Part shown: one piece after another, positions 37,397-48,435 of the stretch
Numbering within the stretch: the stretch's first letter is position 1
How the letters are laid out: each line of letters begins with the position of its first letter
Position numbers and translations under genes: made by a program
The notes under the pieces: generated by a model
Databases searched by the model: none
What the model was told of the DNA's origin: nothing
Seen by the model: the letters and a program-made list of their open reading frames with translations, nothing else
Assembly: GCF_002307355.1 (NCBI RefSeq)
Contig: NZ_CP017481.1
Span: 2,914,001-2,978,000, forward strand
Direction of reading: 5' to 3'
Length of the DNA: 64,000 nucleotides
DNA from: Pectobacterium polaris
GTDB taxonomy: Bacteria; Pseudomonadota; Gammaproteobacteria; Enterobacterales; Enterobacteriaceae

Positions 37397-38992
37397 ATGA
37401 AAAAAGCAGGAATACGATTGACTCTGGCAGCGTTGACGCTGGCGGTCGCTTCAGCGGCCTCAGCGAATACGCTGGTGTACTGCTCGGAAGGATCGCCGGA
37501 AAACTTTAACCCGCAGCTTTACACCTCCGGCACCAGCGTGGATGCCAGCGCTGTGCCGATTTATAACCGTCTGGTAGATTTCAAAGTGGGCACCACGGAG
37601 CTGGTGCCGAGTCTGGCGGAGAGTTGGGACGTCAGTGCTGATGGGCGTGTCTATACCTTCCATTTGCGTAAAGGCGTGAAATTCCAGAGCAATAAATACT
37701 TCAAACCTTCGCGTGATTTTACCGCCGACGACGTTATTTTCTCCTTCATGCGGCAAAAAGATCCGCAGCACCCTTACCACAGCGTCTCGAAAGGGACCTA
37801 TGCCAATTTTGAGAGCTTGTCCTTTGGCTCGTTGATTCAGAGCATCGAGAAAGTGGATGACCACACGGTGCGCTTTACGCTCTCCCATGCGGAAGCCCCA
37901 TTTCTGGCCGATTTAGCCTGGTACTTCGCGTCTATTCTCTCTGCGGAATATGCCGATGCGATGCTCAAAGCCGGGACGCCGGAGCGTGTGGACATGGATC
38001 CGATTGGCACCGGACCGTTTGAATTAGCGCAATATCAGAAGGATTCTCGCATCCTGTTTAAAGCGTTCCCCGACTATTGGGAAGGCAAGGCCAAGCTGGA
38101 TCGGCTGATTTTCACCATCACGCCGGATGCCTCCGTGCGGTACGCCAAGCTGGAGAAGAATGAGTGTCAGGTGATGCCGTTCCCTAATCCCGCCGACCTG
38201 CCGCGCATGAAAGAAAACAAGGACATCGTGCTGATGCAAAAGGCCGGACTGAACACCGGCTTCCTGTCGTTCAATACCCAGAAAGCACCGACGGATAATG
38301 TGAAGGTGCGGCAGGCGTTAACGATGGCGATTAACAAGCCGGCGATTATCGAAGCTGTTTTCCAGGGAACCGGAACGGCGGCGAAAAACCTGCTGCCGCC
38401 GGGCGTCTGGAGTGCCGATAGCGACCTGAAAGACTATGACTACGATCCTGAGAAGGCGAAGGCGTTACTGAAAGAAGCCGGTTTGGCGGAGGGCACCGCT
38501 ATCGAACTGTGGGCGATGCCGGTACAGCGCCCGTATAACCCGAACGCTCGCCGCATGTCGGAGATGATTCAGGCGGACTGGGCGAAAGTCGGTGTGCAGG
38601 CCAAAATTGTCACCTTCGAGTGGGGCGAATACCTGAAAAGGGTGAAAGGCGGTGAGCATCAGGCGGCACTGATGGGCTGGACAACGGCAACGGGCGATCC
38701 TGATAACTTCTTCGGGCCGCTCTTTACCTGTACGGCGGCCAACGGTGGTTCCAACTCGGCAAAATGGTGTTATGCGCCGTTTGATAAACTCATTATCGAA
38801 GCGCGCGCTTCACAGGATCATGAGCAGCGTATTGCCCTGTACAAGCAGGCGCAGCAGATGATGCACGATCAGGCACCGGCCGTCATGATTGCGCATTCCA
38901 CCATCTTTGAACCCGTACGTAAGGAAGTGACCGGATATGAGGTCGACCCGTTCGGTAAGCATATTTTCTATCAGGTAGACGTGAAGAAATAA
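37397..38992 (+). CDS. DppA-like dipeptide ABC transporter substrate-binding protein (orphan)
   Basis: Periplasmic family 5 binding protein of 531 residues (E. coli DppA 535). A signal peptide (MKKAGIRLTLAALTLAVASAASA) is followed by NTLVYCSEGSPENFNPQLYTSG, and long stretches match DppA, for example NECQVMPFPNPADLPRMK, WAMPVQRPYNPNARRMSEM and KIVTFEWGEYLKR. No permease or ATPase genes are nearby, so it must use the Dpp membrane components encoded elsewhere, or act in heme or peptide sensing. It is probably a paralogue rather than DppA itself, which normally heads dppABCDF. Two tandem repeats flank the gene. Confidence 0.88.
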   Translation: MKKAGIRLTLAALTLAVASAASANTLVYCSEGSPENFNPQLYTSGTSVDASAVPIYNRLVDFKVGTTELVPSLAESWDVSADGRVYTFHLRKGVKFQSNKYFKPSRDFTADDVIFSFMRQKDPQHPYHSVSKGTYANFESLSFGSLIQSIEKVDDHTVRFTLSHAEAPFLADLAWYFASILSAEYADAMLKAGTPERVDMDPIGTGPFELAQYQKDSRILFKAFPDYWEGKAKLDRLIFTITPDASVRYAKLEKNECQVMPFPNPADLPRMKENKDIVLMQKAGLNTGFLSFNTQKAPTDNVKVRQALTMAINKPAIIEAVFQGTGTAAKNLLPPGVWSADSDLKDYDYDPEKAKALLKEAGLAEGTAIELWAMPVQRPYNPNARRMSEMIQADWAKVGVQAKIVTFEWGEYLKRVKGGEHQAALMGWTTATGDPDNFFGPLFTCTAANGGSNSAKWCYAPFDKLIIEARASQDHEQRIALYKQAQQMMHDQAPAVMIAHSTIFEPVRKEVTGYEVDPFGKHIFYQVDVKK

Positions 38993-39011
38993 GATCGTGA
39001 AGAAATAAGAT
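38980..39011 (+). repeat. 16-base perfect tandem repeat spanning the stop codon of the DppA-like gene
   Basis: CGTGAAGAAATAAGAT occurs at 38980-38995 and again at 38996-39011. The first copy includes the last codons and TAA stop of the DppA-like gene. The second copy repeats them outside the gene. This is a clear short duplication event. Confidence 0.9.
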
Positions 39012-39418
39012 GCAGTGAAAACGGCACGCCGCACGGCGTGCCTGACTTCGGCGGAACGCGATTGCTCGATTTCGTCGTGTCGACAGTTTCCCATGCGGAT
39101 AATACCGCACCTCTGTGGCTAGCCTTATCGGTATTGCGCCGAGCATTGCTGTACGCCACTCGCCGCCAATGCCACTTTCCGTAATACACGCCACTTTCCG
39201 CAATACGCGGAGTTTCTTCTCCATTAATCGACACGTTTGCCTGCAAGCGGGTGGCGTCTTGCAATATTCGTCAATGGGAATGACAACTCAGGTTATGAAG
39301 TCAGAGCATTAATGATACTACTATCAGATACAAAGCACTGCCGACACAAGATCGAACCAGAACTCATCAATTGAGAAAACGCGACGTGTAGAAATCAACA
39401 ATATCATGGAATCCATGT
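38993..39418. other. Intergenic region between the DppA-like gene and the PTS EIIC gene
   Basis: About 430 bases without a credible gene. It holds the 16-base duplication, a strong hairpin at 39023-39042 (GGCACGCC with GGCGTGCC) without a T run that may end the DppA-like transcript, and a 19-base tandem repeat at 39171-39208. The last 130 bases are AT-richer and should contain the promoter of the PTS unit, but no CRP or other site was convincing. Confidence 0.65.
39171..39208 (+). repeat. 19-base tandem repeat upstream of the PTS locus
   Basis: GCCACTTTCCGTAATACAC at 39171-39189 and GCCACTTTCCGCAATACGC at 39190-39208 differ at two positions. A weaker related segment (GCCACTCGCCG) precedes them. 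Function unknown. Confidence 0.85.
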
Positions 39419-40705
39419 ATGTCATTTAACTCAACGCTAGTACAAGAAAAAATGCTGCAATTAATGCAGAGCATTGGCCAAAATATTTATCTGAAATCAG
39501 TAATGAGCGGAATGATGCTGGTGTTGCCTGCCACCATAATGAGTTCACTGGCGACCTTGCTGAAAGTATTTCCGTTTGCGCCTTATCAGGCATTTCTGGT
39601 CAAACACGATCTTGTTCGGTTTTTTGATATACCGATTAATTTTACCAATAATTTCCTGGCCGTCATCGTCGCGTTCTCTGTTGCTTATACATTAGCTAAA
39701 AACCTTAACGCTGATAGTTTCATGAGCGGCCTGCTTTCGATGATATCGTTTTTCATTCTGACACCTTATCAATTAGGCGATGTCGGGCCTTTGGGGCAGT
39801 CATTTGCTATTCCGAGCCACTGGCTTGGTGCGATGGGGTTATTTACGGGGATTCTGGTTGCCATCACGGCAACACGGATATTCGTAGCGATAACCAGAAA
39901 AGGGCTGATTATAAAAATGCCTGACACGGTGCCGGAGTTTATTTCGAAATCATTCTCGTCATTGGTGCCGGGCATTGTGATCCTCACGTTTTTCACCGTG
40001 GTTTCTGCCGCTATCACGATCAATGGCCTAGGCAGCATTCATGAGATTATTTATAAACTCATTCAGGCACCGTTGACGTCACTCGGGTCGGGTATCGGGT
40101 CGCTTATTTTTGTCGCTATTCTTGCTCAACTGCTCTGGTTTTTTGGGCTGCACGGGCACGCGATTACGCTGGGTATCGTTGCGCCTATCTGGTTCGCTAT
40201 GGATGCGCAACAGTTGGCCGCCTATGCCGCAGGAATCACACCGCCGAATATCACGGGTTTTGCCTTTTTCATGACCTATGGGGTTGCCGGGGATTTATTG
40301 CCGCTTGCCTTTATGCTGGCATTTCTGGCCAAAAGTAATCGTTATCAGACGCTAGGGAAAATTGCCTTGCCTCCCGCTGTGTTCACCATCGGCGAACCGA
40401 TGGCTTATGGTGTACCGCTGGTCATGAATTTCGCTCTCGCCATTCCCTATATTTTCATCAATGGGCTCATGCTTGGTCTCGCATACTACCTCACTGTCAT
40501 CGGTATTTTGCCGCGCGTTGCGGGTGTCAGTACGCCAGCAGGGATTCCGGTTATTGTCTCTGGATTTATGCAGGGGAGCTGGAAAATTGCGGCGTTTCAG
40601 TTTGTCGGGCTTTTTATTCGTTTCGCAGGTTGGTATTTCTTCTTCAAAATTGCTGACGCAATAGCCTGCAAGGAAGAAAACGCAGAACGCGTGAATAACA
40701 GTTAA
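39419..40705 (+). CDS. PTS lactose/cellobiose-family EIIC (sugar permease)
   Basis: Membrane sugar-translocating subunit of a PTS transporter, 428 residues, about ten helices. FFGLHGHAITLGIVAPIWF and GEPMAYGVPLVMNFALAIPYI are the conserved cytoplasmic-loop and sugar-binding segments of CelB/ChbC-type EIIC proteins. It contains no EIIB or EIIA domain; these are encoded 6.3 kb downstream at 46962 and 47319. The adjacent GH78 gene suggests that the cargo is a rhamnosyl saccharide, which is inference. The gene is AT-richer than the housekeeping genes around it. Confidence 0.9.
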   Translation: MSFNSTLVQEKMLQLMQSIGQNIYLKSVMSGMMLVLPATIMSSLATLLKVFPFAPYQAFLVKHDLVRFFDIPINFTNNFLAVIVAFSVAYTLAKNLNADSFMSGLLSMISFFILTPYQLGDVGPLGQSFAIPSHWLGAMGLFTGILVAITATRIFVAITRKGLIIKMPDTVPEFISKSFSSLVPGIVILTFFTVVSAAITINGLGSIHEIIYKLIQAPLTSLGSGIGSLIFVAILAQLLWFFGLHGHAITLGIVAPIWFAMDAQQLAAYAAGITPPNITGFAFFMTYGVAGDLLPLAFMLAFLAKSNRYQTLGKIALPPAVFTIGEPMAYGVPLVMNFALAIPYIFINGLMLGLAYYLTVIGILPRVAGVSTPAGIPVIVSGFMQGSWKIAAFQFVGLFIRFAGWYFFFKIADAIACKEENAERVNNS

Positions 40706-40755
40706 TACACGAATCTATGGGGTTTGCGTAATAAAGCAGACATTAAAAGTGAGCC

Positions 40756-43392
40756 ATGATGAGCAGCATGTTAAAAATTAATTATCAAGAAGAAAATATT
40801 GTCGTTGATAGATGTCCTTTATTTTTAAGCTGGTCGGTAGATTATCGGCAGACGTCATTCACTCTGTCTGTTTTAAAGGATGAAACCGTTATCTACACCA
40901 CCAGCAGAGCAGGTAATGATACGACGTTACACCTTGACTCATTCGCGTTAGCCTGCAATACACAGTATGCCATTGAAATTTTCGTTTATGGTGAGGGCGA
41001 TAATCGTACCTCAATGAAAAAAATGTTCAGTACCAGTAATTTCGGTCAATTTAAAGGGTGCTGGATTTCAGGTGATAAAAAAAATAGTGATGATGGTTAT
41101 TATCTGGAGAATAGAAATACCGTTATAAGAAAGACGTTTGATGTCGTTGATGATATCGCGATGGCCTGCATGAGTATTGTCGGGTTGGGTTTCTATAAAC
41201 TCTATATTAACGGGAATGAAATAACGGGAAATGAGCTCAATACCGACTGGACGAACTATAATAAAACCGTTTATTACGATACGTATGACGTGAGTTCCTT
41301 TTTAAGAAAAGGAACGAATAACGTCACTATCGAATTGGGAAATGGATGGTTTAACCCTGCGCCGCTTAAATTATTTGGAAAGTACAATTTAAGAGATGTG
41401 TTGTCCGTTGGCGATCCGCAAGTCATCGCTGATTTGGTGATTAAGGGAACCACGGGAGAGTTCACCATTTCCACCGATGAATCGTGGGAATTCTGCGAAG
41501 GGGCATATGTTTTTAATAATATCTATCTGGGTGAAAGGGTGGATTTCAGACTCTTCAGGGGAAGCAACACAAGCGATATTATCAATCCGGTATGGAAAAA
41601 GGTATTGATTAGTCATGGGCCAAAAGGCGAATTCGTATCCAGCTTTATTCCAAAGATCAAACAAGCCGCGACGGTGGGTTCCTCGCATATCTACGTTGTC
41701 GATGAAAATGAGTTGATTATTGATTTTGGCAAAATTATCGCCGGATTTATCAACCTAACGATGACTGCCTCTGAGAACCAACAAGTTCTGCTGACTTACA
41801 GTGAAGAGGTGTACGAAAACTATACGCTGAACTCCGATTCCACGCTGGCGGGGTTTGTTGGCAAAGAGGTTGCGCCCGGCGTCATCATTAATGGTGGACC
41901 GGAAGCGCCTCACCGTGCGGAACAGCAGGACACGCTGACTTGCCGCAGTGGGGTCAATCATTTTGTTAATCAATTCACTTATCACTCCTTTCGTTATGTC
42001 AGAATCAGCGGCATTAACCTCGACCAGTTGAATCATATTTGTGCCGTTTCTGTTCATACCGATCTGGCTGAATGTGGCGGATTCCGTTGTTCCGATCCTT
42101 ACCTGAATCAGTTAGTGGATATTGCCCGGGAGACGAAGTTAAACAATGTCCACTCCGTACTGAGTGACTGTGCTCGCGAGCGATTTGCCTATGGCGGAGA
42201 TATCGTTGCGCTGGCTAAGTCACAAGTCTATCAATTTGATTCTGCAACCATTTATGAGAAAACCCTTGTAGACTTTATTAATGACATCCGCCCGAATGGG
42301 GGCGTTCCCGAAACAGCTCCGTTTATGGGGATAAAAACCAATGGAACGGGAGGGGATGCCGGGCCATTGGGCTGGCAACTGGTACTCCCTTATCTGATTC
42401 ACATCCATTACCAGCACTATGGCAATGTGAAATTGGTCTATGAAATGCTCCCGTTCCTTGAACGCCAGCTTGAGCATTTGGCGCGGTTAAATCTTGATGA
42501 ACTGAGCGCGTGCTGCCTGGGGGACTGGGGAAGTCGCGATGTGAATACGGCAAATTACAAGTCAGGGTCACCTGCTCTGCATTTTACGGCTACCTGTTTT
42601 TATTACTATCACATCATTTTGTTGGTGAAATTCTGTAGAGCAATAAATCTGAAAGAAAAAGCGGATTTTTATTCAAATAAAGCAAATGAAGTAAGAAATG
42701 AAATTCTGACAAGATATAAAAATGAAGATGGTAGTTTTGCGGATAAAAGCCAGACAAGCTATGTATTTGCCATATACTTTGCGCTTGCAGACGATATACA
42801 AGCCGCGCTAACGTCACTACTTAACCTGATTGCCGCTGATAATGACAACATTAAATGTGGTATCTTTGGGCAAAGTTTTCTTTATGAAATTTGTCGTCAA
42901 TATGACCAGAATGATGTGATTGTTAAATGGCTCAGCGCTGATGAGGGTTTCAAGGGAATGCTCAACGGTGAGTCCATGACCTTAAAGGAGTTTTTCGGCG
43001 ACAACAAAAATGGCTCTTGTAATCACGCTATGTTCAGTTCCTATTCAAGCTGGATGTATCAGGGATTGGGGGGAATATCTGTTACGGATGATGCGGTAGG
43101 CTCTGATGTTATTTCAATCAATCCCTGTTTTATCGATTCCATTGAGTTTGTCGATTGCTGGCACCAAACGATACGAGGCCGTATTAATTGCAACTGGCGT
43201 CGTGATGGAAATGGAATTGAATTAGTGATCAAGATTCCATATAACCTAAAAAAATGCACTCTGACGATCGCCAAGGCGTATACTGTCCTTGATGAATTAC
43301 CCGCTTCGATGAAGTGTGATAGTTTTAATCAATATTTTGACATAACGAATGTGGGCGAGATAAAAATCCTGCTGACGAGGTCGTTACATTAA
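40756..43392 (+). CDS. GH78 alpha-L-rhamnosidase, cytoplasmic
   Basis: Glycoside hydrolase that removes terminal alpha-L-rhamnose, 878 residues, with no signal peptide. The N-terminal part (about 120-330) has the GH78 accessory beta domain pattern: FYKLYINGNEITGNELNTDWTNYNKTVYYDTYDVSSFLRKGTN interrupted here for length, with GNGWFNP and AYVFNNIYLGERVDFR later. The catalytic (alpha/alpha)6 domain follows; its acid motif is DCARERFAYGGDI at residues 471-483, where the usual DCPxRE has Ala for Pro. GDWGSRDVNT and a late SSYSSWMYQGLGGI segment also fit. It follows EIIC by 50 bases, so it probably cleaves the imported, phosphorylated sugar. Starts at 40759 or 40768 are also possible. Confidence 0.86.
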   Translation: MMSSMLKINYQEENIVVDRCPLFLSWSVDYRQTSFTLSVLKDETVIYTTSRAGNDTTLHLDSFALACNTQYAIEIFVYGEGDNRTSMKKMFSTSNFGQFKGCWISGDKKNSDDGYYLENRNTVIRKTFDVVDDIAMACMSIVGLGFYKLYINGNEITGNELNTDWTNYNKTVYYDTYDVSSFLRKGTNNVTIELGNGWFNPAPLKLFGKYNLRDVLSVGDPQVIADLVIKGTTGEFTISTDESWEFCEGAYVFNNIYLGERVDFRLFRGSNTSDIINPVWKKVLISHGPKGEFVSSFIPKIKQAATVGSSHIYVVDENELIIDFGKIIAGFINLTMTASENQQVLLTYSEEVYENYTLNSDSTLAGFVGKEVAPGVIINGGPEAPHRAEQQDTLTCRSGVNHFVNQFTYHSFRYVRISGINLDQLNHICAVSVHTDLAECGGFRCSDPYLNQLVDIARETKLNNVHSVLSDCARERFAYGGDIVALAKSQVYQFDSATIYEKTLVDFINDIRPNGGVPETAPFMGIKTNGTGGDAGPLGWQLVLPYLIHIHYQHYGNVKLVYEMLPFLERQLEHLARLNLDELSACCLGDWGSRDVNTANYKSGSPALHFTATCFYYYHIILLVKFCRAINLKEKADFYSNKANEVRNEILTRYKNEDGSFADKSQTSYVFAIYFALADDIQAALTSLLNLIAADNDNIKCGIFGQSFLYEICRQYDQNDVIVKWLSADEGFKGMLNGESMTLKEFFGDNKNGSCNHAMFSSYSSWMYQGLGGISVTDDAVGSDVISINPCFIDSIEFVDCWHQTIRGRINCNWRRDGNGIELVIKIPYNLKKCTLTIAKAYTVLDELPASMKCDSFNQYFDITNVGEIKILLTRSLH

Positions 43393-43431
43393 AGTATTGG
43401 CGTAACAACCCTGCTCCATGTAGGTGGTTTT

Positions 43432-44376
43432 ATGTTGAACTCTACAATCCATGACGATCTGCTGGCGTATACAGACAGAGAGCTTGAAATATTACAAGCC
43501 AATTATAAATTTAACCATAAATTTAAAAATCACATGGAGCGAAAGTTTTTTAAAGACAACTACATCTATATCGAAAAGCAAACGCGGTTCGCAAAAATAC
43601 CGTTACATTCTCATGGGTTCATTGAGCTTATTTACATCTATCAGGGTGAGATGAAGCAAAATGTAAACGAGTTACCTTTAACGTTGAAGAAGGGCGAACT
43701 CCTGCTGCTCAATCAGTTTGCCAAGCATGAAATTGACGCAGCAGGCCATGATGACATCATTATCAATTTCATTATAAAAATTGAATTTTTTGGAAAATTA
43801 ATGTCATTATTTGATGAAGAGAACATCATATCCGATTTCATTCTTTCATCAATTAACGGAAAAATGCGATATGGTGAGCATATCCATTTTAAAGTGGGTG
43901 ATATTGAGTCAATACAAACGATAATGCACGTTATTATTAGTGAAATATACAGTAAAAATAACCTGAAAGAAGTGCGTGTCAATTTCCTGGTTGGTTTACT
44001 CATCACTGAACTGATCTCGAATGTGGAGTCGAGTGACTATCATGTCAATGGCAGCTACAACGAATCACTGTCCATGTCGGTACTTAAGTATATTGATGAA
44101 AACTACAGTACGGCCAGCCTGAAAGAAATTTCTGACAGGCTAAAACAGCCTAATTATAAAGTCAGTAAATTGCTAAAAGCATTTACGGGTAAAAATTTCA
44201 GTGAGCTCCTCATCGAGAAACGAATAGACGTGCTCATCCATCTCCTCAAACATACTAACCACTCAATCATTGATATTATCAATATGACGGGTTATGAGAA
44301 TGCCTCGCACTGCTATAAAATATTTAAAGAGAAGCACAGTATGAGCATAAAGGAATACAGAGATAGAAATATGTAG
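43432..44376 (+). CDS. AraC-family regulator with cupin sensor, probable local regulator
   Basis: Regulator of 314 residues. The N-terminal half has a cupin-type sensor (LHSHGFIELIYIYQGEMKQNVNELPLTLKKGELLLL interrupted as LHSHGFIELIYIYQG and KKGELLLLNQF) that probably binds a sugar. The C-terminal half has two helix-turn-helix motifs, ASLKEISDRLKQPNYKVSKLL and SIIDIINMTGYENASHCYKIF. It follows the rhamnosidase by 39 bases, and a terminator ends the unit after it. It likely activates both this unit and the porin-esterase-EIIB-EIIA unit. The gene is distinctly AT-rich, suggesting acquisition. Confidence 0.86.
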   Translation: MLNSTIHDDLLAYTDRELEILQANYKFNHKFKNHMERKFFKDNYIYIEKQTRFAKIPLHSHGFIELIYIYQGEMKQNVNELPLTLKKGELLLLNQFAKHEIDAAGHDDIIINFIIKIEFFGKLMSLFDEENIISDFILSSINGKMRYGEHIHFKVGDIESIQTIMHVIISEIYSKNNLKEVRVNFLVGLLITELISNVESSDYHVNGSYNESLSMSVLKYIDENYSTASLKEISDRLKQPNYKVSKLLKAFTGKNFSELLIEKRIDVLIHLLKHTNHSIIDIINMTGYENASHCYKIFKEKHSMSIKEYRDRNM

Positions 44377-44395
44377 AGCTCATGTTTTCTATTAG

Positions 44396-44428
44396 AAACC
44401 GCAGGAGAGATTACTGCGGTTTTTTTTC
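44396..44428 (+). terminator. Rho-independent terminator after the AraC gene
   Basis: A nine-base stem AAACCGCAG/CTGCGGTTT with a nine-base loop runs into eight or more T residues. It separates the EIIC-rhamnosidase-AraC unit from the porin unit. Confidence 0.92.
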
Positions 44429-44570
44429 GTATATACCCTGCAAAAATCGACATAGAGAAAGGCAAGTCAGGATATAACTCACTGCATTATTGTAAATATA
44501 ATGATGATAATTCATAACAACAAAATATCCATTTATCTTCTGCCTATTATACTCTGATGGAGTCGAATTA

Positions 44571-45854
44571 ATGCACCATAATAAAATAGCGATATATTTA
44601 ACATCATGCTTTATTTCAATATCCTCTGTTCATGCCGCCAATCTTTCTGACGATGGGTCTTTCCAATTAAATGGCTATGGCATGGTCGCCGGGGATTTCC
44701 AGAGCGAATTCAATCGTCCTAAAAATATGTCATTGCATGCCGATCCCACGGGGCCAAATCAGGATCCCCGGGGGAAAATGGGCGATCTTGGGAACAGCTT
44801 TTGGCATGACTATTTTACCTCGCTGGCCATCACGAAAAAATGGCAGGGGGTGGGTGCCCCTGAACAGTGGGCTGATTATACTTATCAAATGGTTGGCTAT
44901 GGTGATAAGAGCATTGAAACGGCGCAGAATTTTGGTCGATTTGGCGGGTTATCTTTTCTGCCCGAAGACGCCAATATCTGGGCGGGCCGTCGCTACCTGG
45001 ATGAGCGCCTCAGCATCTTTGCCTATAACACAAAAGAGATTCATGTTGACTCCGGTGTGGGTTACAGCGGCAAAGATCTTGATGTGACGATAGGCACAGC
45101 ACAAATAGACTGGTCGAGTGCCAGCGCGCCACAGGCAATTGAAGGGTCGCGACGTATTTTTGATATCGCATACCGAGTGGGTCCAACGGAATGGGGTGCC
45201 ACCTATGTGAAGGAGCTGGATAACCCGTTAAATACCGGCGTTCAGCGAGCCATGAGTTTCTCTGGGAAATACAATTTATCGTCGTTTATGGGAATAGCAG
45301 AAGGGCGTTCATCGCTAAAATTCCAATACGGTAAAGGCATTATTGCTCAGTACCTGAATACCAGCCGGATCAGCGTGCTGAGTGAGGAAGGGGATTCAGC
45401 GCTGCGGCTTACGCTTGATGGTAGCCTCAATATGTTTGACGATTTTGCCGTTACTCCCGCCTTTATTTACGAATATACCAAGCGCGACAAATCTGCGGAA
45501 AGAACCACGCTAATCCCGGATACCAGCTATGCGGGCGGCAACACAATTTATGGATCGGGAAATGAGACTGGAATTTTCGCTGGCGTCAGCGTTAAACAAA
45601 ACCTCCACCATCAGAACCTGTCGATGCTGTATGAAGCGGTTATCAATAATACGACCAATAAAAATGGCGTGATAGGCGCAGACGGCACCGCATATAAGAT
45701 TGCGATGGGGCCGGCGATTCAGCTTGATGTTATGCCCTATGCTGCGCCAATCGCCAGCCTGACGCTCACCTACGCGGGCGGCGATCGTGCCGTTACCCTG
45801 TTACCTACCGATTCTGAATGGCGTCTGGGCTACCGTCTGGAAGTCTGGTTTTAA
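44571..45854 (+). CDS. LamB-like outer membrane carbohydrate porin
   Basis: Outer-membrane sugar channel of 427 residues. A signal peptide (IAIYLTSCFISISSVHA) is followed by a beta-rich protein with maltoporin-family landmarks: an N-terminal GSFQLNGYGMVAGDF, LGNSFWHDYFTSLAI, DANIWAGRRYLDERLSIFAY matching the WAGKRFY region of LamB, and a C-terminal WRLGYRLEVWF, the expected terminal beta strand with an aromatic end. It would pass oligosaccharides through the outer membrane for the esterase and PTS encoded beside it. The substrate is inferred from context. It starts the second unit of the island, 194 bases after the AraC gene. Confidence 0.82.
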   Translation: MHHNKIAIYLTSCFISISSVHAANLSDDGSFQLNGYGMVAGDFQSEFNRPKNMSLHADPTGPNQDPRGKMGDLGNSFWHDYFTSLAITKKWQGVGAPEQWADYTYQMVGYGDKSIETAQNFGRFGGLSFLPEDANIWAGRRYLDERLSIFAYNTKEIHVDSGVGYSGKDLDVTIGTAQIDWSSASAPQAIEGSRRIFDIAYRVGPTEWGATYVKELDNPLNTGVQRAMSFSGKYNLSSFMGIAEGRSSLKFQYGKGIIAQYLNTSRISVLSEEGDSALRLTLDGSLNMFDDFAVTPAFIYEYTKRDKSAERTTLIPDTSYAGGNTIYGSGNETGIFAGVSVKQNLHHQNLSMLYEAVINNTTNKNGVIGADGTAYKIAMGPAIQLDVMPYAAPIASLTLTYAGGDRAVTLLPTDSEWRLGYRLEVWF

Positions 45855-45896
45855 CACATTATTTATCTCTTATTTGAAATGACAGGATGTATCGAT

Positions 45897-46859
45897 ATGC
45901 TGAAAAAAATAACGCTCTTATTGATGGTATTAACGGCACCCTCTGTATTTGCGCAAGCGGATACGGCAGGCAGTAACATTATTAACATCAAGCCTACGGC
46001 GCTTCCCGTCGAAATGGAAGCCGACATTGCTTATTCATTGACCAAAAATATCATGGGGCGACCGCTGCAATTATCCATGGATTTGGTTAAGCCTTACTCA
46101 GATAAGCCGTTGCCTGCGGTAGTCTTTATTACCGGCGGGGGTTTTATTGATGCGCCCAAATCCAAATACATCGGGCAACGTGTTGATATCGCGAGAGCGG
46201 GTTATGTCGTCGCCAGCATTAATTATCGTGTCGTGCCAACGGTGACATTCCCTGGCATCGTTGAAGATGCAAAAACCGCGGTCAGATTTTTACGTGCCAA
46301 TGCGGATAAATTTGGTATTGACCCGAATAAGATTGCCGTCATGGGGGAATCTGCCGGTGGATATTTAGCCGCGATGGTGGCGACGACGAACGGTGTGAGC
46401 GAGTTTGATAAAGGTGATTATCTGAATCAGCGCAGCGATGTTCAGGCTGCCATTGATTTGTATGGATTATCCGATCTAACGTCCGTCGGCGCAGACTTCT
46501 CGGATGAGAGGAAAGAGGCACATAAATCGCCAGCTATCCCAGAAGCGATGCTGGTCAATGGGATTCCGTGGCACGGCGGCGGGTCGATTTTGAACGATCT
46601 GGATAAAGCCAAAAAAGCCAACCCCATTACCTATATATCAAAGAAAACGCCGCCATTCTTATTAATGCATGGCGATGCCGATAATGTTGTGTCACCGAGT
46701 CAGACGCGCATTCTGCATGAAGCGCTTGTTGCTCATGGCATTAATTCAACGCGTTATGTTGTTCAGGGCGCCGATCATGCCGGGCTATTGTGGTATCAAC
46801 CTGAAATCATGAAAACCATTATTGCATTCCTGGACCGCAATTTGAAATCTACCCGATAG
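45897..46859 (+). CDS. Secreted alpha/beta-hydrolase esterase (BD-FAE/lipase-like)
   Basis: Exported carboxylesterase of 320 residues from the ATG at 45897, preceded by AGGATG; an ATG at 45879 would add six residues. Signal peptide MLKKITLLLMVLTAPSVFA. The oxyanion segment is VVFITGGGFID, where HGGG-type proteins usually have His. The nucleophile is Ser152 in GESAGGY. Asp262 in HGDADNVV and His294 in GADHAGL complete a catalytic triad. Such enzymes deacylate plant polysaccharides or glycosides (acetyl or feruloyl groups). Between a porin and PTS genes it likely strips an acyl group in the periplasm before uptake. The specificity is inferred. Confidence 0.83.
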   Translation: MLKKITLLLMVLTAPSVFAQADTAGSNIINIKPTALPVEMEADIAYSLTKNIMGRPLQLSMDLVKPYSDKPLPAVVFITGGGFIDAPKSKYIGQRVDIARAGYVVASINYRVVPTVTFPGIVEDAKTAVRFLRANADKFGIDPNKIAVMGESAGGYLAAMVATTNGVSEFDKGDYLNQRSDVQAAIDLYGLSDLTSVGADFSDERKEAHKSPAIPEAMLVNGIPWHGGGSILNDLDKAKKANPITYISKKTPPFLLMHGDADNVVSPSQTRILHEALVAHGINSTRYVVQGADHAGLLWYQPEIMKTIIAFLDRNLKSTR

Positions 46860-46866
46860 GATGAAT

Positions 46867-46897
46867 AAAAACCGCGCTTTATTTAGCGCTGGTTTTT
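46867..46897 (+). terminator. Hairpin between esterase and EIIB genes (attenuator or partial terminator)
   Basis: AAAAACC-GCGCT pairs with AGCGC-T-GGTTTTT with one bulged T and a six-base loop, flanked by A and T runs. It lies 7 bases after the esterase stop and 65 bases before EIIB. It could reduce transcription into the EIIB/EIIA pair or protect the mRNA 3' end. Confidence 0.7.
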
Positions 46898-46961
46898 ATG
46901 GGGATTTTATTTATCTCAGAAAGAAATACTTTGTCTCTTAAATTATTATGGCGATTTCATT

Positions 46962-47267
46962 ATGAAAAAGATTTTCCTTTGTTGTGCAGCAGGTATGTCG
47001 ACCAGTATGGTCATGAATAAAATGAAGCAGGCCGCAGCAGAAAAAAATATTGAGGTGCAGATCGTTGCGGTATCAATGGATGATTTTGACAGCATGTTAC
47101 CCCAGTACGACTGCTGTCTTTTAGGGCCACAGATTAAATATAAGTTTGATGAATTTCAGAAAAAAGCGGCCGCGGCAGGAAAGAAAATTGCCGTTATCGA
47201 CAGCATGGATTACGGCATGATGCGGGGCGATAAAATCCTTAGTGATGCCCTGGCAATGCTTGATTAA
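46962..47267 (+). CDS. PTS lactose/cellobiose-family EIIB
   Basis: Cytoplasmic phosphocarrier of 101 residues. The N-terminal FLCCAAGMSTSMVMNKM is the EIIB active-site loop with the phosphorylated cysteine at Cys8, next to AAGMSTS as in ChbB. LLGPQIKYKFDEFQKKA and IDSMDYGMMRGDKIL follow the family. It takes phosphate from the EIIA encoded 51 bases downstream and passes it to the sugar in the EIIC encoded at 39419. Confidence 0.93.
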   Translation: MKKIFLCCAAGMSTSMVMNKMKQAAAEKNIEVQIVAVSMDDFDSMLPQYDCCLLGPQIKYKFDEFQKKAAAAGKKIAVIDSMDYGMMRGDKILSDALAMLD

Positions 47268-47318
47268 ACGCTCGCATTATTCTGACAGTTTTTTAAATTT
47301 ATAAACGTGGGGTTAAGT

Positions 47319-47636
47319 ATGGACATGGAATCAACCGTCATGGAGCTTATTATTAATGCGGGGGAATCCCGAAGCTGTGCCATGCAGGCGCTTCGTGCCG
47401 CTAAGCAGGGAAACTGGGTGGAGACGGATTTGCAAATGAAGGCGTCTTTCGAGGCGTCAAAGCGTGCTCATGACGTGCAGACTATGCTGATTGGCATGGA
47501 TGAAGGATGCGGCAAAGTGCCGGTTAACCTCATTCTGGTGCATGCACAGGATCACATTATGAATGCCATGCTGGCGCGTGAGTTGATTGAAGAACTCATT
47601 GATGTTCATCGCCAGCTCCAGAAAAAGCAGGCATAA
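47319..47636 (+). CDS. PTS lactose/cellobiose-family EIIA
   Basis: Cytoplasmic helical phosphocarrier of 105 residues from the ATG at 47319, preceded by GGGGTT; a GTG at 47307 would add four residues. AGESRSCAMQALRAAKQGNW and LVHAQDHIMNAMLARELIEELI are typical of LacF/ChbA-type EIIA. His75 is the expected phosphorylation site and Asp78 the metal-binding residue at the trimer axis. It is the last gene of the island. Confidence 0.93.
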   Translation: MDMESTVMELIINAGESRSCAMQALRAAKQGNWVETDLQMKASFEASKRAHDVQTMLIGMDEGCGKVPVNLILVHAQDHIMNAMLARELIEELIDVHRQLQKKQA

Positions 47637-47745: not shown

Positions 47746-48435
47746 TTACTCGGTTTCATCACCGTAATACAGCTTACCGATGCGGATAATATCGCGTCCC
47801 TGTGATTTGCGATGCTTATTGGAATCACGCAGAGAATAAATGCAGCCGCAATACTCCTGTTGATAGAAACGTTCGCGTTTGCTGATTTCAATCATGCGCG
47901 ACGAGCCGCCGCCTTTGCGCCAGTTGTAATCCCAATAGGTCACGCCGGGATACTTCTGCGCGGCGTTATGCCCACACTCGGTAATCTGCTGCATATTTTT
48001 CCAGCGTGAAATTCCCAGCGAACTGGAAATGACGCTAAAGCCGTTTTCTGCGGCGTACAGCGCCGTGCGTTCGAAGCGCATATCAAAACACATGGTGCAG
48101 CGAATTCCGCGTTCCGGTTCCCACTCCATGCCTTTAGCGCGTTCAAACCAGTTATCCGAGTCATAATCTGCATCGATGAAAGGCACGTTATGCTGTTCGG
48201 CGAAACGGATATTTTCTTCTTTGCGGATCAGGTATTCGCGCTGCGGGTGGATATTGGGGTTATAAAAGAAAATGGTGTAATCGATGCCAGAAGCGGTGAT
48301 GGCTTCCATGACTTCACCAGAGCAGGGCGCGCAGCAGGAGTGCAGCAACAGCTTGTCGGCATTATTCGGCAGAGAAAGCTGTGGACGTTGCAGTGCAGCG
48401 GTTTTGACGTTCTGCATAGTTTTGACATTCGACAT
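47746..48435 (-). CDS. queH: Epoxyqueuosine reductase QueH
   Basis: Performs the last step of queuosine tRNA modification, reducing epoxyqueuosine; it is the non-cobalamin alternative to QueG. It has 229 residues. The iron-sulfur cysteines are in HSCCAPCSG (Cys34, Cys35, Cys38), RCTMCFDMR and the C-terminal [21 protein letters not shown] and [11 protein letters not shown] are also family features. A second ATG at residue 7 gives an alternative start at 48417. It is divergent from dusC, another tRNA modification gene, 209 bases away. Confidence 0.92.

Follow-up and report, generated by a model that had tools for sequence, protein, structure and literature searches.

The window analysed here, a stretch of 64,000 nucleotides from the single-contig, 4.83-Mb genome of Pectobacterium polaris, carries between positions 39419 and 47636 seven open reading frames, all on the forward strand and all with open frames, which encode in this order a lactose-type EIIC of the phosphotransferase system (PTS), a glycoside hydrolase of family 78 (GH78), an AraC regulator, a LamB porin, an exported esterase of the BD-FAE type, EIIB, and EIIA (Table 1). 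Each of the seven products scores above the Pfam gathering threshold for its own family (PTS_EIIC, four GH78 domains, HTH_18 with AraC_binding, LamB, BD-FAE, PTS_IIB, and PTS_IIA), so that ORF positions, strand, and families agree with the seven same-direction genes described in an initial annotation of this DNA.

Table 1. Features of the P. polaris window, in window coordinates
Feature	Position	Strand	Basis
dppA-like peptide-binding protein gene, left flank	37397..38992	+	NF043070, 922 bits, below the cut-off of 1005; neighbour of queH in related stretches
Left edge: second copy of the 16-bp unit (38980-39011), empty-site intergenic sequence, degraded copy of the queH 3' end	38993..39139	.	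alignment to L111; families D3, D9
PTS EIIC, lactose/cellobiose family	39419..40705	+	PF02378, 129 bits; TIGR00410 above cut-off
GH78, predicted alpha-L-rhamnosidase, PTS-linked branch, without signal peptide (by eye)	40756..43392	+	GH78 domains
GH78 codons 461-475: branch-specific K461 and H466, then catalytic-loop D471 and E475	42136..42180	+	alignment
AraC-family regulator with cupin domain	43432..44376	+	HTH_18, AraC_binding
LamB-family outer-membrane porin	44571..45854	+	PF02264, 61.6 bits, cut-off 25.1
Exported alpha/beta-hydrolase esterase, BD-FAE family	45879..46859	+	PF20434, 186 bits; GESAG (GxSxG) in translation
PTS EIIB, lactose/cellobiose family	46962..47267	+	PF02302; CAAGMST motif aligned to 4mge
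PTS EIIA, lactose/cellobiose family	47307..47636	+	PF02255; His differing between 1wcr and 2lrk conserved
queH, intact right flank of the insertion	47746..48435	-	PF02677; adjoins the dppA-like gene in 19/20 stretches

Gene products of the locus

The three PTS proteins make up a full lactose/cellobiose-family set. EIIC exceeds the cut-off of the NCBIfam lacE subfamily (268.9 against 236 bits) and aligns with 3qnq (E 2.4e-61) together with the His and Glu that we take to be the sugar-site residues; the CAAGMST motif of EIIB presumably holds the phospho-Cys, and the His by which 1wcr and 2lrk differ is, we assume, the active, phosphorylated His of EIIA. EIIB and EIIA fall under the narrower NCBIfam cut-offs.

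The GH78 protein has the catalytic and accessory domains of its family, and release of rhamnose is its predicted activity. Its E475 and E745 align with E636 and E895 of SaRha78A, which we take to be the general acid and general base glutamates, and both are invariant in a 25-row GH78 alignment. A missing general base had been suspected in this branch from the lack of a Glu directly behind NHAMFSSY, but the alignment places the base at E745, the Glu in TLxE; since this residue is conserved, a phosphorylase reading of the protein was dropped. Relative to the characterized enzymes DtRha (6i60), SaRha78A (3w5m/3w5n), BsRhaB (2okx), and KoRha (4xhc), the island GH78 is divergent (24% identity to 6i60 and 21% to 3w5n), and the loop of its branch, DC[x]RER, is one or two residues shorter than the DCPxRER/DCPQRDER of characterized GH78 and is accompanied by K/R461 and H/R466.

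By eye, the N-termini of the esterase and the porin resemble signal peptides, whereas that of GH78 does not, which agrees with the earlier description of a signal-less GH78 alongside an exported esterase. The second ATG (45897) is the probable start of the esterase, to judge from homologue P0121, a protein of 320 aa that matches 98% of the query at 100% identity. Feruloyl esterase is the name of its family only, and acetyl-ester activity is equally open on the strength of sequence matches, the nearest PDB entries including an acetyl xylan esterase. The porin is a LamB-family member by its LamB domain, with passage of sugar as its predicted role; a PDB sequence search gave no match to it at E<=0.001. 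For the AraC regulator the top NCBIfam model is RhaS, at 52.6 bits under a cut-off of 288. Between 38900 and 48000, terminator-like sites exceed those of shuffled sequences (20 against a mean of 8.9, sd 3.3), and one such site lies on each strand between the esterase and EIIB genes, at 46874-46889.

Insertion site and related gene clusters

The dppA-like gene and queH are separated by 8753 bp in this genome, as against 52-278 bp in 19 of the 20 same-genus stretches fetched; among these 19, queH was matched only partly in L121, and L122, the 20th stretch, gave no queH match. An insertion of 8.7 kb is thus missing from the site in 19/20 stretches, and its left edge matches the empty site of L111 at 77% over 151 columns. 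At the end of the dppA-like gene there is an exact 16-bp tandem duplication with a degraded copy of the queH 3' end alongside it (38980-39139). At E<=1e-100, EIIC was found in the P. polaris source genome alone among 25 genomes of the genus, which, with the length of the gap, bears out the view of the locus as an accessory island; at E<=1e-120 it occurs in two of the 392 sampled genomes of the family (the source genome counted) and, in the genus to which V. tubiashii belongs, in three of 227. This rare and patchy distribution fits a mobile catabolic unit. The island had also been called AT-richer than its flanks, which holds against the dppA-like gene and dusC (36-51% GC per island gene against 55 and 57%); queH itself is at 50%. 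No tRNA gene lies in the window, and inspection by eye of the ORFs between 36000 and 51000 showed no integrase. Megablast against E. coli gave hits in 43 of 5426 genomes but no counterpart of the island, the 20 records listed being matched in queH only. Homologues in 'Pectobacterium sp. LFLA-215' are 83% (GH78) and 95% (esterase) identical.

The same arrangement of seven genes is present in Pantoea allii (L018), in Vibrio tubiashii (L019) and two more Vibrio loci (L146, L147), and in Klebsiella pneumoniae (L097, L098). Both K. pneumoniae records came from a search of plasmid records, although one of them, at 5.4 Mb, is plainly a chromosome. Across related loci, identity to the proteins of the window is 63-85% for EIIC and 45-60% for GH78. 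All gene kinds of the island are present in a different order in a Fusobacteriaceae MAG (L023), three Clostridium loci hold EIIB, EIIA, EIIC, and GH78, and esterases of a like kind occur in Vibrio, Pantoea, Brenneria, and Dickeya. Two copies are decayed: in K. pneumoniae 176 (L098:10001-18063) an IS5-family element lies inside GH78 and the porin and esterase genes are each in two pieces, and in G795 (L148:4979-9598) GH78 is in two frames and the AraC gene is cut, with no porin, esterase, EIIB, or EIIA in about 5 kb beyond this remnant.

In all three Vibrio loci a GH1 gene directly follows EIIA; that of V. tubiashii passes the NCBIfam cut-off for a 6-phospho-beta-glucosidase, and it is followed by a RhaS-like gene (under cut-off) and then by genes for rhamnulokinase (rhaB) and rhamnose isomerase (rhaA), both above cut-off. 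GH1 6-phospho-beta-glucosidases also lie near GH78 in the three Clostridium loci (L021, L022, L026). There is no GH1 gene in the operon of the window, nor near GH78 in the Pantoea allii or Fusobacteriaceae locus, and this counts against the interpretation that we develop below.

A PTS-linked branch of GH78

The wider distribution of the linkage was followed in 79 distinct loci from named records, the best 80 of 395 relatives, which were picked by patterns conserved in the 25-row GH78 alignment; counts over these loci describe near relatives and not GH78 as a whole. A scan of genome contigs with the single GH78 protein as query found nothing. The shortened loop motif, as DC[x]RE[RH], is present in 48 of the 79 loci, and in 45 of these 48 a PTS gene lies within 1 kb (families confirmed on samples by Pfam), belonging to the lac superfamily in 23 loci, the glc superfamily in 20, and the man superfamily in four, with two loci having two kinds. 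Co-occurrence of GH78 with lactose-family EIIC, EIIB, and EIIA, which the initial annotation had proposed to look for, is therefore found both as a conserved order in Pantoea, three Vibrio loci, and Klebsiella and as a lac PTS at 23 branch loci; the combination that it singled out stands as a conserved linkage, but the link is broader than the lac family. The three branch loci without PTS are L052 and L061, whose contigs end early, and L051, a member with full flanks that counts against our main reading. L037, L041, and L060, unclassed by motif and hence outside the 48, are all PTS-linked.

Two comparisons were made with other GH78 genes. Of the 28 loci that carry the canonical, longer motif and come from other taxa, none has a PTS, a weak control in that these taxa often have no sugar PTS and some contigs are short. 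Within 11 of the same genomes, a PTS lies within 2 kb of four of the 38 other GH78 genes (L182, L203, L204, L207). For this second control, 21 genomes were searched and 37 stretches matching at about E 1e-19 or better were taken from 11 of them, eight weaker matches being left out; a profile found 44 GH78 genes in these stretches, from which three focal genes or pieces (L207, L190, L191), two double readings (L209), and one branch member (L210) were removed. The canonical motif was present in 25 of the 38, and no motif was found in the other 13. Chance linkage to PTS genes was rejected on the two comparisons together. Among the control exceptions, a canonical-motif GH78 gene is directly beside a PTS gene in Streptococcus ovuberis (L182:2770-7484) and Companilactobacillus suantsaicola (L207:4792-12346).

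In a tree of 74 rows, from which 15 redundant or short-contig rows (L052 and L061 among them) had been dropped and to which 12 controls had been added, all PTS-linked rows of the branch (24 lac, 9 glc, and 4 man) and L051 fall on one branch with an SH-aLRT of 100, and the four PTS-linked control exceptions are placed on the other side of the split. Branch members span Pseudomonadota, Fusobacteriota, Bacillota, and Actinomycetota. Well-supported forks force at least two changes of the lac label within the branch while a link to some PTS is kept, and this persistence of the link through changes of PTS kind is the strongest argument that what the GH78 enzyme depends on is a PTS product, whichever transporter supplies it. 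Other genes of a possible pathway are less constant across the 48 loci: GH1 lies within 9 kb in 14, RhaA or RhaB within 10 kb in 12, and an esterase within 5 kb in 12.

In 19 Actinomycetota loci (L034, L045, and 17 others) GH78 adjoins a glc-family EIIBC in what looks like a parallel unit for rhamnosyl glucosides, with an esterase of BD-FAE/Abhydrolase type within 5 kb, GH1 within 9 kb, and RhaA or RhaB within 10 kb in nine of the 19 each. Branch GH78 genes stand beside a mannose-family PTS in L055, L060, L064, L072, and L210 (Niallia, Vagococcus, Listeria, Enterococcus), the L210 member at a distance of 177 bp.

The branch is also marked in its residues. Position 461 is K or R in all 111 branch rows and in none of the 61 others, and position 466 is H or R in 111/111 and 4/61, respectively; these are the only two of 878 positions that are basic in >=93% of the branch and in <=20% of the rest. 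The branch rows are the window, 48 loci, 61 homologues, and one control, and the others are 28 loci and 33 controls, rows that, being related, are not independent observations; the homologues P0015, P0023, and P0043 (820 aa or less) and five controls shorter than 650 aa were left out. With the 61 homologues that had been found by similarity to the GH78 of the window set aside, both positions are basic in 50/50. They sit just ahead of D471 and the catalytic acid E475, and are candidate phosphate-reading positions; in a structure model of the protein, pLDDT is under 50 at 467-478. K300 was also considered as a phosphate reader, being K in 23 and H in one of 24 lac-linked loci, and was rejected: Actinomycetota mostly have P or R there, and over the branch the position is basic in 95/111 rows and P in 15/111 (none lac- or man-linked, mostly from glc-type loci), so that it is neither a general phosphate reader nor a mark of the whole branch.

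We propose tentatively, as a serious possibility that stops short of a probable one, that this branch may consist of 6-phospho-glucoside-dependent alpha-L-rhamnosidases, which would cut only once a PTS has phosphorylated the glucose next to the rhamnose and would read the phosphate through K/R461 and H/R466. We know of no earlier phospho-specific activity in GH78. Among plant and dietary phenolics, rhamnosylated glucosides form one of the major classes. If the proposal is true, assays on ordinary naringin or pNP-rhamnoside would miss or misjudge the branch enzymes of bacteria from the gut, food, and plants, and genomes could be annotated by the motif for PTS-dependent use of rhamnosyl glycosides. 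The GH78 enzyme could instead cut unphosphorylated rhamnosides that enter otherwise, with the PTS importing another beta-glucoside of the same plant material and the two sharing regulation only, and a purified Lactobacillus acidophilus rhamnosidase is reported to act on rutin and naringin (PMC7858073); we regard this as unlikely, because a neighbouring PTS drawn from three superfamilies in 45/48 branch loci stands against 4/38 for other GH78 genes and because the seven-gene unit has no second sugar transporter. Should that enzyme, or that of a bee Lactobacillus (PMC8456714), belong to the branch, it would count against strict dependence on phosphate.

Proposed substrate and pathway, and known systems

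Known transporters of the lac-family PTS phosphorylate the O6 of their sugar, a position at which L-rhamnose has no hydroxyl, galacturonic acid carries a carboxylate, and the glucose of rutinose is occupied by rhamnose. Because rhamnose has no O6 hydroxyl, the phosphate must go on the partner hexose, which needs a free O6, and this need argues against rutinose and RG-I and for rhamnose at O2, O3, or O4 of glucose, as in neohesperidosides and glycosides of the chacotriose and verbascoside types. The neighbouring GH1 6-phospho-beta-glucosidases suggest that the glucose is itself beta-linked, and hence a rhamnosyl-beta-glucoside rather than only a free disaccharide. In verbascoside, rhamnose is on O3, a caffeoyl ester is on O4, and O6 is free; it would employ every gene of the operon, the exported esterase acting as a caffeoyl esterase, which is a guess that acetylated glycosides fit equally well.

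On these grounds we consider it fairly probable that the operon of the island came in by horizontal transfer and serves the use of plant alpha-L-rhamnosyl-beta-D-glucosides with a free glucose O6, in which GH78 would act on the PTS-phosphorylated forms. Computation establishes the identities of the genes, their insertion and conserved order, and, for the GH78 branch, its PTS linkage and its specific basic residues. The route that we infer, in its substrate, phosphorylated state, order of steps, and regulation, would run as follows. A glycoside with rhamnose on O2, O3, or O4 of glucose, for example a neohesperidoside or a hydroxycinnamoyl-esterified phenylpropanoid glycoside of the verbascoside type, would pass the outer membrane through the LamB porin and lose its acyl or cinnamoyl group to the periplasmic BD-FAE-type esterase; EIIA, EIIB, and EIIC would import it and phosphorylate the O6 of its glucose; the cytoplasmic GH78, of a branch dedicated to PTS products, would take rhamnose off the phosphorylated glycoside; the 6-phospho-beta-glucoside left over would be cut by a GH1 enzyme coded elsewhere in the host (adjacent in Vibrio); and the freed rhamnose would go to RhaBAD, with the AraC protein as the presumed switch of the operon. 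What this offers is an ordered and testable pathway from porin through esterase, PTS, GH78, and 6-phospho-beta-glucosidase to RhaBAD.

The general proposal of the initial annotation, uptake and hydrolysis of a rhamnosyl sugar, is supported by these results, and its particular candidates, rutinose and RG-I oligosaccharides, are poor ones, since the usual O6 phosphorylation site is missing. Import of an acylated rhamnosyl disaccharide of that kind, a rutinose or RG-I fragment, followed by GH78 cleavage would agree with the gene content and with the five pectate-lyase matches of the host genome (PF00544), three of them in tandem, and a bee Lactobacillus with an upregulated rhamnosidase gene, whose enzyme may or may not belong to the branch, is reported to consume rutin (PMC8456714); we consider it very unlikely, as rutinose has no free glucose O6, rhamnose and galacturonic acid have no O6 hydroxyl, and an RG-I route would have no need of the GH1 6-phospho-beta-glucosidases seen in the Vibrio and Clostridium loci.

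As to the remaining steps of the phosphorylated-glucoside route, the host genome has 10 GH1 matches, rhaB- and rhaS/rhaR-like genes by similarity, and rhaD by eye. For RhaA there is one match only (G000:C1:1675496-1676736; L149:8997-10237, minus strand), and it falls into two reading frames with a short overlap of a few bases; open rhaB-, rhaS-, and rhaR-like genes adjoin it. Use of rhamnose by this host is therefore uncertain unless the split is a sequencing error, and of the complete route that had been claimed, the genes for uptake and hydrolysis are present whereas completeness in this strain is doubtful. The split rhaA, the presence of the operon in one of 25 genus genomes, and the broken copies in K. 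pneumoniae 176 and G795 would also suit an operon that reached the lineage recently and is decaying there or of little use to it, a reading to which we give very little credence because all seven frames are open here and the catalytic residues are conserved.

Among known systems, the island is a chb/bgl-like PTS operon built on GH78. The chb operon of E. coli (chbBCARFG, with the porin ChiP) likewise combines lac-family EIIB, EIIC, and EIIA with a regulator of the AraC/cupin type, a porin of the outer membrane, a deacylase, and a glycosidase that works on the phosphorylated sugar in the cytoplasm, and the best match of the island EIIA is the chitobiose EIIA. It differs in having a GH4 enzyme in place of GH78, a cytoplasmic amidase, ChbG, in place of the exported ester-type esterase, and a different sugar, whereas the porin of the island is of the LamB family and lies inside the operon; scores against the chb equivalogs ChbC and ChbR stay under their cut-offs (PRK10297, 140.7 against 760 bits; PRK10296, 23.9 against 264 bits). 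The bgl and asc aryl-beta-glucoside operons share PTS uptake of beta-glucosides, the LamB-type porin BglH, and a phospho-glycosidase, and they are unlike the island in having no rhamnosidase or esterase and, in E. coli bgl, another PTS family.

The combination was thought possibly undescribed, which is too strong: a 2019 paper on V. parahaemolyticus AQ3810 describes a 26-kb L-rhamnose region that lacks a canonical transporter but has a rhamnosidase and, next to it, a PTS (PMC6537148), so that the two already stand together in print in an island that also carries genes of rhamnose catabolism. The account of that region names no GH family, PTS family, porin, or esterase and proposes no phosphorylated substrate; a GH78 homologue of V. 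parahaemolyticus (P0036) is 46% identical, and one of Vibrio natriegens (P0029) 47%. A study of rhamnose-use regulons describes a rhamnose permease, ABC transporters, and other routes for rhamnosyl oligosaccharides, the terms PTS and phosphotransferase being absent from its text (PMC3870299). In the open-access passages searched, we found no mention of a phosphorylated substrate, of this GH78 branch, or of a unit with porin and esterase. In Listeria costaricensis, a ChbG-type chitin disaccharide deacetylase above the NCBIfam cut-off (L027:6614-7444) lies near an EIIC-GH78 pair.
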